Shown: positions 23,703 through 39,193 of the stretch, one piece after another
Position numbering within the stretch: position 1 is the stretch's first letter
Layout of the letters: each line of letters begins with the position of its first letter
Assembly: GCF_023371205.1 (NCBI RefSeq)
Contig: NZ_JAMCCO010000003.1
Coordinates: forward strand, 62,001-126,000
Length of the DNA stretch: 64,000 nucleotides
Source: Parvivirga hydrogeniphila
GTDB taxonomy: Bacteria; Actinomycetota; Coriobacteriia; Anaerosomatales; Anaerosomataceae
Direction of reading: 5' to 3'
Notes under the pieces: generated by a model
What the model was told of the DNA's origin: nothing
Database searches by the model: none
What the model saw: only the letters and a program-made list of their open reading frames with translations
Position numbers and translations under genes: made by a program

Positions 23703-24284
23703 GTGCGGGCGTTCTTCGGCATCGCGTTGAGCGAGCCCGCGCGCTCGCTGCTCGCGGACGCGTGCGACGCGTTCCGCGACGCTGCGCCGTCCTGGCGTTG
23801 TGAGAAGTGGGTCCCTCCAGCGAACTACCACCTCACGCTCGCGTTCCTGGGCGAGCATCCACGCGAGCGGGTCGAGGCGATCGCCGCGCACGCGGCAGAC
23901 GGACTGCGCACGCGTCGGCCGTTCACGGTTGCGCTCGGGACGGTCGTCGCGTCCCCGCGGGGGCGTTCTGCCACCATGCTCTGGGCGACGCTCGCAGCAG
24001 GGGAGCACGAGTCAGCAGAGATTGCCGGCATCGTGACCGACGCTGCGGAAAACTACGGCATCGAACCGCCGCGGAGGCCGTTCGCTGCGCACGTCACGCT
24101 CGTTCGAGCACGGCGGCCGAGGACTGCGCCAGACGATGCACTCGCTCAAGCATCCGAGGTCCTCTCGCAACGCGCGTCCGAGGGCATCGTGTCAGTGGGG
24201 GAGGTCATACTCTACTCGAGCACGCTCACTCCTCGTGGGCCGGTCTACGAAGCCATCGGCCGTCTGCCGCTTCACGGGGATTGA
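23703..24284 (+). CDS. thpR: RNA 2',3'-cyclic phosphodiesterase (LigT/ThpR family)
   Basis: 193 residues. The two HxT/S motifs of the 2H phosphoesterase superfamily are seen in NYHLTLAFLG (about 40-49) and FAAHVTLVRAR (about 125-135). Members hydrolyse 2',3'-cyclic phosphates or ligate tRNA halves in vitro. The GTG start lies two bases after the cinA stop. Together with cinA and recA this is the usual neighbourhood in Gram-positives. Biological substrate unknown. Confidence 0.9.
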   Translation: MRAFFGIALSEPARSLLADACDAFRDAAPSWRCEKWVPPANYHLTLAFLGEHPRERVEAIAAHAADGLRTRRPFTVALGTVVASPRGRSATMLWATLAAGEHESAEIAGIVTDAAENYGIEPPRRPFAAHVTLVRARRPRTAPDDALAQASEVLSQRASEGIVSVGEVILYSSTLTPRGPVYEAIGRLPLHGD

Positions 24285-24309
24285 CATCGAACAGATGTTC
24301 GTATAGCGT
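24281..24309 (+). promoter_or_regulatory. recA promoter with perfect SOS (LexA) box
   Basis: A consensus -35 TTGACA occupies 24281-24286. The SOS box CGAACAGATGTTCG (24288-24301) matches the Gram-positive consensus CGAAC-N4-GTTCG exactly and fills the spacer. The -10 is TATAGC (24302) or TAGCGT (24304). LexA bound here would block RNA polymerase directly. The recA start is 58 bases downstream of the box. Confidence 0.9.
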
Positions 24310-36089: not shown

Positions 36090-37412
36090 ATGCCCGAACG
36101 GGCCACTGGATACGAACCTGCCACGGACGAACGCCGGGAGCGCGCCGTCTTGGTCGGCGTCGAACGGGTCGGAGACGCGCGTCCGTACGCGTGGGACATC
36201 GAAGAGGACCTCGCCGAGCTTGCGCGCCTCGCAGATACAGCAGGGCTCGAGGTGGTCGGCACGGTGACGCAGCGTCTCGCGCGTCCGGAAGCGAAGACCT
36301 TCATCGGCACAGGCAAGGCCGAAGAGGTCGCGCGGTTGGCGAAGGAGCGTAACGCTGGCGTCGTCGTGCTCGACGAAGAGCTCACGCCGAGCCAGCAGGC
36401 GAACCTCGAGCGGCTGCTTCCCGACGTTCGCGTCATCGACCGCACCGCGCTCATCCTCGACATCTTCGCCCAGCACGCCGTCAGCTACGAGGGCAAGCTG
36501 CAGGTGGAGCTCGCGCGTCTTGAATACCAGCTGCCGCGATTGAAGGGCATGTGGGAGCACCTCGAGCGCGAGCGCCTTGGCGGCGGCAGAGGCGCGCGCT
36601 TCGGTGCAGGCGAGTCGCAGCTCGAGACGGACCGGCGGCTCACCCGCAAGCGCATCGCCGAACTCAAGCGCGAGATCGCCTCCATCGCTCGCCACCGCGA
36701 GACGCAGCGGCGCGCTCGCGTGGGATCCGGCGTGTTCCGCATCGCGCTCGTCGGCTACACCAACGCGGGAAAGTCGACGGTCTTGAATGCGCTCACGGAC
36801 GCTGGCGTGTTGGTGGAGGACAAGCTCTTCGCGACGCTCGACGCCACCACGCGCCGGCTCGAGCTCCCGATGGGCAGGGAGGCCACGATCACCGACACCG
36901 TCGGTTTCATCAACAAGCTGCCGCACGGCCTCGTGGAATCGTTCCGATCGACGCTGCTAGAGGCCAGGGAGGCCGATCTGCAGCTGCACATCGTGGACGC
37001 GTCCTCGCCGCACGCTGCTGCGCGTGTCACGGCCGTCAACGAGGTGCTCACGGAGATCGGCGCGAACGAGCGGCGGCAGGTGCTCGTCTTCAACAAGTGC
37101 GACCTGCTCTCAGCCGAAAGCCGCGCACGGCTCGCTGCAGCGTGGCCGAACGCGGTGTTCATCGCGGCGGCCACGGGGGAGGGGATCGACCGCCTCGTGG
37201 AGCGCCTTGCGCAGGAGGCCGCGCGGCTCGATGAGCCGATCAAGGTCACGCTGCCGTTCTCGCGCGGCGACCTCGTCTCGGCGGTGCACGAGCGCGGCAC
37301 GGTGGTGTCCGAGGAGCACACGCCTGATGGCACCGTCATCATCGCGCGCGTTCCGCACGACCTTGCGGCCCGTCTCGAGCCGTTCCGTCGCAGTGAGGCG
37401 GAGCAGGGCTAG
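36090..37412 (+). CDS. hflX: GTPase HflX
   Basis: 440 residues. HflX is a ribosome-associated GTPase that splits stalled ribosomes. The N-terminal domain ([28 protein letters not shown]), the linker [20 protein letters not shown] and the G domain with [15 protein letters not shown] and NKCD are all present. It is the last gene of the long + strand run; its stop shares the CTAG tetranucleotide with the stop of the convergent lexA. miaA-hflX neighbourhood is common in bacteria. Confidence 0.95.
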
Positions 37413-38032
37413 AGCCGACGGAAGAGCGCCACGACCTTGCCGAGGATGCGCGCTTCGCGCACGTAGATCGGATCCATCGTGCTGTTCTCCGGCTGCAGCC
37501 GGATCCTGTCCGGTTCGCGGAAGAACCGCTTGACGGTCGCTTCGTCGTCGATGAGCGCGACGACGATGTCGCCGTTGTCCGCCGCAGGCTGCTGACGCAC
37601 GACCACGTAGTCGCCGTCGAGGATGCCCGCCTCGACCATGCTGTCCCCACGCACGCGCAGGATGAAGGTGGAATCGCCTGCGAACTCGGCGGGCAAGGGG
37701 AGCGTGGCCTCGATGTTCTCCGCGGCGAGAATCGGCTGCCCCGCGGCCACCGACCCCACGAGCGGTACCGCCGTCACGGACCGAGGATCCACGCCGCGCT
37801 CGGTGTCCCGGAAATCGAGCACTTCGAGCGCGCGCGGCTTGGTCGGGTCGCGCCGGATGTAGCCGTGCTTCTCCAGCGCCGCGAGATGAGCGTGGACGGT
37901 GGACGAGGACGACAACCCGACCGCTTCGCCGATCTCGCGGACCGACGGCGGATACCCTTTGCGGTGGATCTCGGCCCGGATGAAGTCCAGGATCTGCTCC
38001 TGGCGCCGGGTGAGCCGTGGCTGATACTCCAT
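37409..38032 (-). CDS. lexA: SOS transcriptional repressor LexA
   Basis: 207 residues. The N-terminal winged helix ([40 protein letters not shown]) binds SOS boxes; the C-terminal S24 domain holds the Ala-Gly cleavage site in SVAAGQP (about 99), the catalytic serine in GDSMVEAGI and lysine in EATVKRF. ATG at 38032 has AAGGGGG upstream; longer in-frame starts run through the promoter and SOS boxes. It is autoregulated through boxes at 38090-38159 and divergent from the LysM gene. Confidence 0.97.
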
Positions 38033-38063
38033 GTCGCCCCCTTGCTTCGGGACCCTCGCGCCT

Positions 38064-38103
38064 AGTCTACAGCCTTGCATGCACGAATGCAAACATGCGT
38101 TCG
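38064..38103 (-). promoter_or_regulatory. lexA promoter with an SOS box (one mismatch)
   Basis: On the - strand, -35 TTGCAT (38087-38092), 17-base spacer and -10 TAGACT (38064-38069). The box CAAACATGCGTTCG (38090-38103) differs from CGAAC-N4-GTTCG at one position and overlaps the -35. This allows LexA autorepression. Confidence 0.65.
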
Positions 38104-38111
38104 ATGTCGTC

Positions 38112-38140
38112 TTGCAATACGAACACGTGTTCGGTATGCT
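38112..38140 (+). promoter_or_regulatory. LysM-gene promoter with a perfect SOS box in the spacer
   Basis: -35 TTGCAA (38112-38117), exactly 17 bases, -10 TATGCT (38135-38140). The perfect SOS box CGAACACGTGTTCG (38120-38133) fills the spacer. Direct LexA repression of the divergent gene is the simplest reading. Confidence 0.8.
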
Positions 38141-38145
38141 TCCAT

Positions 38146-38159
38146 CGAACGGCTGTTCG
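38146..38159 (+). promoter_or_regulatory. Second perfect SOS box downstream of the LysM-gene promoter
   Basis: CGAACGGCTGTTCG matches the consensus exactly. It lies just past the likely transcription start of the LysM gene, 26 bases centre-to-centre from the first perfect box, so tandem LexA dimers may bind. Confidence 0.8.
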
Positions 38160-38223
38160 ATGGATGTCAGACCCCGTCCGTACGATGACGCGTGGAATGC
38201 GCACGACGACACAGGAGCCGAGG

Positions 38224-38622
38224 ATGAGGAGCAGGGAACACACGAGGACGAGGCGCGAGCCGCGATGCGCCGTCACGCTGGAGATGCTCGGGGCGGTGCT
38301 CTCGCTCGCGCTCTTGATCGCTGCGATCGTCCACGCGGCGGGCGCCGCAGCAACGCCTCCGACGGACGTCAAGAGCGTGACGATCGTCGTGCAGCGGGGC
38401 GACACGCTGTGGTCGATCGCACGACGGTGCGCTGTGCCTGGCGACACGATTCCCGAGAAGGTCGCCGCCATCCGCGCCGCGAACGGGCTGCACTCGGCGT
38501 CCCTCTCGCCGGGGCAGTCCCTCTCGATACCCGTCATCGGCGACGATGCTGGCCGCGACCGGGTGGCGGAGGCGTCCGAGCTCGCTTCCAGGGACGGCTC
38601 CGGGCCGCACGAGACGAGGTGA
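38224..38622 (+). CDS. SOS-controlled LysM membrane protein (YneA/Rv2719c-like division inhibitor)
   Basis: 132 residues. A basic N-terminus is followed by one membrane segment (about 20-40, [20 protein letters not shown]) and an extracytoplasmic LysM domain (about 50-105, [20 protein letters not shown], ending [10 protein letters not shown]). ATG 38224 has CAGGAG upstream; earlier in-frame ATGs lack a site. The divergent position next to lexA, the SOS boxes and the membrane-plus-LysM layout match YneA of Bacillus and Rv2719c of mycobacteria, which slow division during DNA damage (established). Function here is inferred from these parallels. Confidence 0.8.
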
Positions 38623-38746: not shown

Positions 38747-39193
38747 ATGCGGTGCCCGTATTGCGGTCACGAAGAGACGAGGGTCGTCGACTCCCGGGTC
38801 TCTGAGTCGGGGGACGCGATCCGAAGGCGTCGCGAGTGCCTTCAGTGCGCGAAGCGGTTCACGACCTACGAGCGCCGCGAGGACGTGCCGCTCATGGTCA
38901 TCAAGAAGGACTCGCGCCGCGAGCCGTTCGACCGCGGGAAGCTGCTGCGCGGGCTGGTGGTCGCCACCGCCAAACGCAACGTCACCACGGCGCAGCTCGA
39001 AGCGCTGATCGACGACATCGAGACCGAGCTGCACAACTCGTTCAGATACGAGGTCCGCGCCAAAGACCTCGGAGACATGGTGTTGAAGCGGCTCCTGGAG
39101 CTGGACAAGGTCGCGTACATCCGGTTCGCGTCCGTGTACAAGCAGTTCCAGGACCTTGATGAGTTCACGTCCGAGCTCAAGAAGCTTGGTTGA
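38747..39193 (+). CDS. nrdR: Transcriptional repressor NrdR
   Basis: 148 residues. NrdR is the (d)ATP-sensing repressor of ribonucleotide reductase genes. The zinc ribbon MRCPYCG...[13 protein letters not shown] and the ATP-cone ([20 protein letters not shown] and following) are intact. ATG 38747 gives the canonical MRCPYCG start with GGGGGTGG upstream; ATG 38732 would add five residues. It has its own NrdR box and is followed by nrdD, its obvious target, on the same strand. Confidence 0.97.

Follow-up and report, generated by a model that had tools for sequence, protein, structure and literature searches.

The window, a 64,000-nt stretch of contig 3 of the 1.84-Mb Parvivirga hydrogeniphila genome, carries lexA and, divergent from it, a gene for a small membrane protein with a LysM domain, which is followed on the same strand by nrdR. 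The region between the start codons of lexA and the LysM gene holds three LexA boxes, predicted promoters for both genes, and an element that matches the mycobacterial PafBC promoter motif. An anaerobic-type ribonucleotide reductase lies downstream of nrdR. The features, in window coordinates, are as follows.

37409 to 38032, minus strand: lexA, 207 aa (TIGR00498, 249 bits against a cut-off of 110.95; Peptidase_S24 and LexA_DNA_bind domains)
38064 to 38069, minus strand: predicted lexA -10, TAGACT
38087 to 38092, minus strand: predicted lexA -35, TTGCAT, 17 nt from the -10
38090 to 38103: LexA box CAAACATGCGTTCG in the lexA promoter, one mismatch, an exact fit to CGAACRNNNGTTYG on the minus strand
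38112 to 38117, plus strand: predicted -35 of the LysM SOS promoter, TTGCAA
38118 to 38134: 17-nt spacer of the LysM SOS promoter
38120 to 38133: LexA box CGAACACGTGTTCG, a perfect CGAAC-N4-GTTCG palindrome
38135 to 38140, plus strand: predicted -10 of the LysM SOS promoter, TATGCT
38146 to 38159: LexA box CGAACGGCTGTTCG, a perfect CGAAC-N4-GTTCG palindrome
38165 to 38186, plus strand: PafBC-type promoter element TGTCAG-N10-TACGAT, after the last LexA box and before the LysM gene
38213 to 38217, plus strand: Shine-Dalgarno-like AGGAG, 6 nt before the ATG at 38224
38224 to 38622, plus strand: YneA/ChiZ-like LysM protein with one transmembrane segment, 132 aa
38694 to 38709, plus strand: NrdR-box-like 16-mer ACGCAATATCTTGTGT before nrdR, 14/16 to the NrdR-box consensus, with no shuffle control
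38747 to 39193, plus strand: nrdR (alternative start 38732; TIGR00244, 198 bits against a cut-off of 124.65)

The sequence-only reading had claimed two perfect LexA boxes (38120 and 38146), a near-perfect one (38090), and the fit of a perfect box into a 17-base promoter spacer. The letters bear this out, with a single mismatch at 38090 and the 38120 box lying wholly inside the spacer. When the 191 nt separating the lexA and LysM start codons were dinucleotide-shuffled 20,000 times, at least one box (at most one mismatch) arose in 382, at least two in 2, and three in none. Genome-wide, single boxes are scarce and their excess over the reversed pattern is modest (8 forward and 10 reverse matches, compared with 5 and 3, where a palindrome counts on both strands), so that the weight rests on the cluster and its conservation. 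Together, the shuffles and the conservation rule out a chance cluster. Boxes also occur at two other loci. At L034 (about 2001-2059), two perfect LexA boxes lie 45 nt apart upstream of a UvrD-type helicase gene, and at L035 (about 1975-2503) a DUF6504 gene is preceded by a TTGTAT/TATACT pair whose 17-nt spacer contains a perfect box and whose -35 has TGTCAGACC immediately upstream of it. The DUF6504 family is a neighbor of the ImuB/DnaE2 mutasome.

Conservation was assessed in 61 genomes, the window's own and 60 relatives from its genus, family, and order. A LexA match was present in 59, and 58 lexA upstream regions were taken in; the remaining genome (G047), which had a weak match, was left out, and additional LexA-like matches in G019 (two) and G040 (one) were not counted as lexA loci. 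The closest named relatives of the window LexA are from Coriobacteriaceae bacterium EMTCatB1 (93 percent) and the Coriobacteriia metagenome-assembled genome SKW301 (91 percent), a ranking from which the nearest records may be missing. EMTCatB1 originates from an electromethanogenic biocathode at 55 degrees (PMC7943316). All three boxes are present with at most one mismatch in 54/58 loci and with at most two in 55/58; the exceptions to the first count are L014, whose third box has two mismatches, L257, which has no box on the lexA side, L262, and L263. The lexA promoter is conserved too, with a TTGC-type -35 and TAnACT at a spacing of 16-18 nt in 55/58 loci. An additional box lies no more than 40 nt from the lexA start in 34/58 loci and in 0/4 members of the window's genus. 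In L009, L018, and L024, extra sequence parts the lexA box from the pair of boxes on the LysM side, while the spacing within the pair stays at 26-28 nt, which suggests two modules.

In the window, the 38090 box overlaps the predicted -35 of lexA, and the boxes at 38120 and 38146 cover the promoter of the LysM gene, the latter box extending over the predicted transcription start at about 38147. A generic sigma-70 scan of 37950-38350 returned no promoter at its threshold. The LysM SOS promoter is instead called because of conservation, in that a LexA box lies within TTG-N3-(16-18)-TAnnnT in 51/58 loci; the other seven show no TTG/TAnnnT pair around a box.

The LysM gene itself is an open reading frame in 56/57 loci uncut by a contig end (29/29 with a profile derived from 9 of these 29, and 27/28 of the rest); L004, which runs into a contig end, was left out of the LysM and nrdR counts. 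Longer versions of the window gene, beginning at 38017 or 38197, were rejected, since the start at 38224 is favored by its ribosome site and by comparison with relatives, and the in-frame ATG at 38197, although possible, has no comparable ribosome site. Across the 29 aligned relatives, W63, A66, N87, G97, and P103 are invariant, and in every protein the hydrophobic stretch is preceded by more positive than negative residues. The LysM Pfam family is found in 27/29. An AlphaFold2 model of the window protein (mean pLDDT 81.2, pTM 0.48, about 95 for residues 51-100) shows a helix at 15-41 and a LysM fold. The YneA model matches all 29 proteins at E ≤0.01, but the window protein scores 45.6 bits against the NCBIfam YneA equivalog cut-off of 60 and is not filed as YneA proper. 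In a profile comparison restricted to the LysM part, the family matches six Bacillota proteins at 98.9 percent (E 3.6e-17) and 17 other actinobacterial proteins at 99.2 percent. The earlier suggestion of a membrane-bound LysM division-inhibitor candidate fits the predicted architecture, one transmembrane segment followed by LysM, as in YneA and ChiZ. A short C-terminal tail of the A-x-R type (for example ASR, ARR, or AQR) is found on many of the LysM proteins outside the window's genus and may be a signal for a protease or for sorting.

The LysM domain is a general one, and LysM proteins serve many roles. The protein could be a damage-induced factor that binds peptidoglycan or remodels the cell wall and places no block on division. 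ChiZ is described as a cell-wall hydrolase, and its LysM domain as not needed for its effect (PMC3989709). We nonetheless consider this alternative unlikely, as the protein agrees with YneA and ChiZ in position, architecture, and family, and a Pfam scan of the 29 proteins found no hydrolase domain. YneA relies on its transmembrane helix for access to the divisome, and its LysM domain must bind peptidoglycan for septal synthesis to be blocked (PMC13396833).

That LexA controls both lexA and the LysM gene, as the sequence-only reading had proposed, is well supported by conservation. The proposal is incomplete, however, because it overlooked the PafBC-type element at 38165-38186. PafBC, which was named beside the Pup ligase, has been characterized in mycobacteria. 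In these bacteria, single-stranded DNA triggers the PafB-PafC heterodimer with no need for LexA or RecA. The motif given for Mycobacterium tuberculosis is TGTC[GA]G-10N-TA-3N-T (PMC8151990, section 3.5), and the window element is an exact TGTCRG-N10-TAnnnT. Across the lexA loci of the order, the strict motif is present in 51/58, a TGTCNN form in 54/58, and a match with at most one mismatch in 58/58. The gap from the last LexA box to the element ranges from 0 to 34 nt, and given this range no claim of helical phasing is made.

The genome encodes the predicted regulators as well.

L048, 1390 to 2355 and 2330 to 3283: pafB and pafC, adjacent, the only two WYL matches in the genome

PafC matches the 6sj9 PafBC chain at 3.5e-35 and the 7p5x PafC chain at 1.4e-27, and carries HTH_PafC. 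PafB matches chains of 9fnd and 7p5x at about 7e-16 and 6sj9 at 4.7e-14; the 9fnd and 7p5x chains that it matches are named transcriptional regulator-like protein, and both entries also contain PafC. WYL matches are present in 58/61 genomes. A PafC search in 40 genomes from other orders of the class gave 26 candidate matches at 24-38 percent identity. The Pup ligase (PF03136) was found in 0/61 genomes, with the control positive in Corynebacterium glutamicum only.

The motif is also enriched in number in the window's own genome, where 28 copies compare with 4 for the reversed pattern. With the wrong spacing, a 13-nt gap yielded 3 (reversed 9) and a 7-nt gap 1 (reversed 4); the reversed counts in these runs indicate that the background can reach 9. 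A general -10 feature as the source of the motif is made unlikely by these wrong-spacing controls. For the 27 copies other than that of the LysM gene, a mechanical rule chose the downstream reading frame, and Pfam was run on 19 of these frames, with no formal enrichment test. Behind the scanned motifs lie polA (DNA polymerase I), recJ, ruvC, priA, a PDDEXK nuclease, a calcineurin-like (SbcD-like) phosphoesterase, a SNF2-type helicase, DciA, DUF2779, a Clp ATPase, a LAGLIDADG endonuclease, and Cas9, many of the motifs thus preceding DNA-repair genes. Others precede genes for an RDD protein, a histidine kinase, a solute-binding protein, and a protein that binds the cell wall; three of the 19 scanned frames matched no family, and several motifs may sit within reading frames. 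The Cas9-like gene (L062:3-2981, minus strand; contig 1, about 879.5-882.5 kb) contains HNH_4, RuvC_III, and Cas9_a domains, and its PafBC-type motif ends 8 nt before the predicted start; it would be damage-inducible if that motif is real.

Could LexA alone matter, with the element being a housekeeping promoter or a chance match? TAnnnT is an ordinary actinobacterial -10 form too, and the PafBC motif arose in 12 of the 20,000 shuffles of the lexA-LysM region. Such an account would have to explain the genome-wide count of 28 against 4, 3, and 1 in the controls, an element kept with at most one mismatch at all 58 lexA loci of the order, and the pafBC genes in the same genome. It would also have to explain the distribution of a narrower TGTCAGANCC form, which occurs in 73 of 296 genomes of the class, 63/69 within the order against 10/227 in the rest (reversed pattern, 1/69 and 7/227). 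We give a LexA-only switch little chance of being right.

The same pairing of elements is seen at recA, elsewhere in the window.

24190 to 24211, plus strand: one-mismatch PafBC-type element, lying upstream of the recA LexA box at a distance of 98 nt
24281 to 24309, plus strand: recA promoter TTGACA-17-TAGCGT (TTGACA at 24281-24286, TAGCGT at 24304-24309)
24288 to 24301: recA LexA box, perfect, inside the 17-nt promoter spacer

In the order, recA has a perfect LexA box in 30/30 loci, and the upstream PafBC motif is exact in 25; the other five, the window included, have one mismatch and lie 98 nt from the box. The idea that the window recA is free of PafBC control was therefore dropped as wrong, given its one-mismatch copy. 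This arrangement resembles mycobacterial recA P1/P2, in which a PafBC-controlled and a LexA-controlled promoter are described before one gene (PMC5656591; PMC11804915). The difference is that in the present order such a tandem also serves the putative division inhibitor.

The nrdR gene follows the LysM gene on the same strand in 28/29 loci, which would fit a single damage-induced operon and a switch meant mainly for dNTP control, but this is unlikely, since the gap of 73-214 nt holds an NrdR-box-like 16-mer (best per gap 11 to 14/16 against the consensus in 28 loci, no control) that ends in TTGTGT or TAGTGT in 24/28 (again no control) and points to a separate nrdR promoter.

Taken together, the lexA-LysM region is probably, at roughly 80 percent by our estimate, a two-way, two-regulator DNA-damage switch, in which derepression from LexA and activation by PafBC each turn on the inhibitor. 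From boxes, hexamers, motif, conservation, regulator genes, and protein architecture, all read from DNA, we infer LexA and PafBC binding, damage induction, and division arrest. LexA on the 38090 box would occlude the -35 of lexA, and LexA on the 38120 and 38146 boxes would occlude the LysM SOS promoter; RecA-stimulated cleavage of LexA would then free both. The second promoter, at 38165-38186 and downstream of the last box, would be activated by the PafB-PafC heterodimer. The product, a predicted one-pass membrane protein with its LysM domain outside, would most likely stall septal peptidoglycan synthesis until repair, as YneA does. More tentatively, with only 5 nt separating the 38146 box from the PafBC element, LexA bound there may in part block the PafBC promoter too. 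Overall, a division brake seems to be wired to two separate damage alarms in this little-studied branch of the Actinobacteria.

Natural variants bear on the share of each regulator. In L262 and L263, which belong to one genus, the LexA boxes beside the LysM gene are gone, and the PafBC motif and the LysM gene are kept; only the box near the lexA start is left, and the first 150 nt hold no second one even when three mismatches are allowed. The reverse case, LexA boxes kept and PafBC motif lost, was found in 0/58 loci. We see about even odds that the division brake of this order is first of all a PafBC checkpoint, responding to single-stranded DNA and independent of RecA, with LexA as a second, dispensable lock. 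If so, the wiring of both the lexA-linked inhibitor and recA to two regulators would date far back in the phylum and would exist in genomes in which no Pup ligase was found, and one genus would already have dropped the LexA part. A PafBC-type regulon tied to a division inhibitor and recA, in a distant order with the Pup ligase not found, suggests an old two-alarm system for which pupylation need not be required. The variants in the order, with the LexA part lost, changed spacing, or extra sequence between the modules, would also allow each regulator's share to be measured.

Parts of this arrangement are already in print, namely a LysM division regulator at lexA (PMC3989709) and PafBC control of the rv2719c operon (PMC8151990). 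M. tuberculosis lexA/rv2719c (chiZ) shares with the window a DNA-damage-induced LysM division regulator at lexA (PMC3989709), and its rv2719c operon, unlike lexA, is reported to be under PafBC control (PMC8151990). The Bacillus lexA/yneA locus likewise has a divergent LysM gene with LexA boxes between, and the LysM-part profile match noted above is to six Bacillota proteins. It differs in that no PafBC motif was found in 10 Bacillota loci, and the window protein falls under the YneA equivalog cut-off. Brooks et al. are said to have found, in 2006, RecA-independent induction of Rv2719c. DivS of C. glutamicum is comparable as an SOS-induced division suppressor near lexA; it is described as having no significant homology with YneA (PMC3989709). 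A Streptomyces study notes PafBC homologs and reports that the motif was not found in an initial search (PMC9380542).

A literature search joining LexA, the SOS response, and Coriobacteriia found nothing, which is weak evidence of absence because subscription papers were mostly outside its scope; the same weak evidence comes from a search joining PafBC with Coriobacter- terms, which found none among the matches listed. In gut Coriobacteriia (Enterorhabdus and Gordonibacter; L131, L143, L149), two one-mismatch boxes lie 28 nt apart upstream of lexA, and neither a LysM gene nor a PafBC motif is recognizable upstream of lexA at these three loci.

The sequence-only reading had seen in the window a repeat of the Bacillus and mycobacterial layouts. 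The known layout of lexA and an inhibitor is indeed present, with nrdR next to it, but it is wider than those two cases. Of 38 genomes chosen from other parts of the phylum, 36 gave a LexA match and 30 loci were analyzed; the LysM gene is divergent from lexA in 17/30. Three or more boxes (at most one mismatch, within 450 nt) are present in 12 of these 17 loci. In 6/17, a TGTC[AG][GC]-N10-TAnnnT motif follows the first box within the lexA-LysM interval; in L228 it stands ahead of the last boxes, and L224, whose motif is only 8 nt from lexA, was left out of the count. Two loci of one genus with larger genomes (L225 and L230; 5.6 and 6.2 Mb) share the order of LexA box, PafBC motif, LysM gene, and nrdR, with one or two boxes and TGTCGG against three boxes and TGTCAG in the window. 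In a scan of the phylum, a box followed by the motif within 34 nt was found in 19/396 genomes. Outside the window's genus, 13 of 17 such places precede recA, so that the compact tandem stands elsewhere mostly at recA and here also at the putative division inhibitor.
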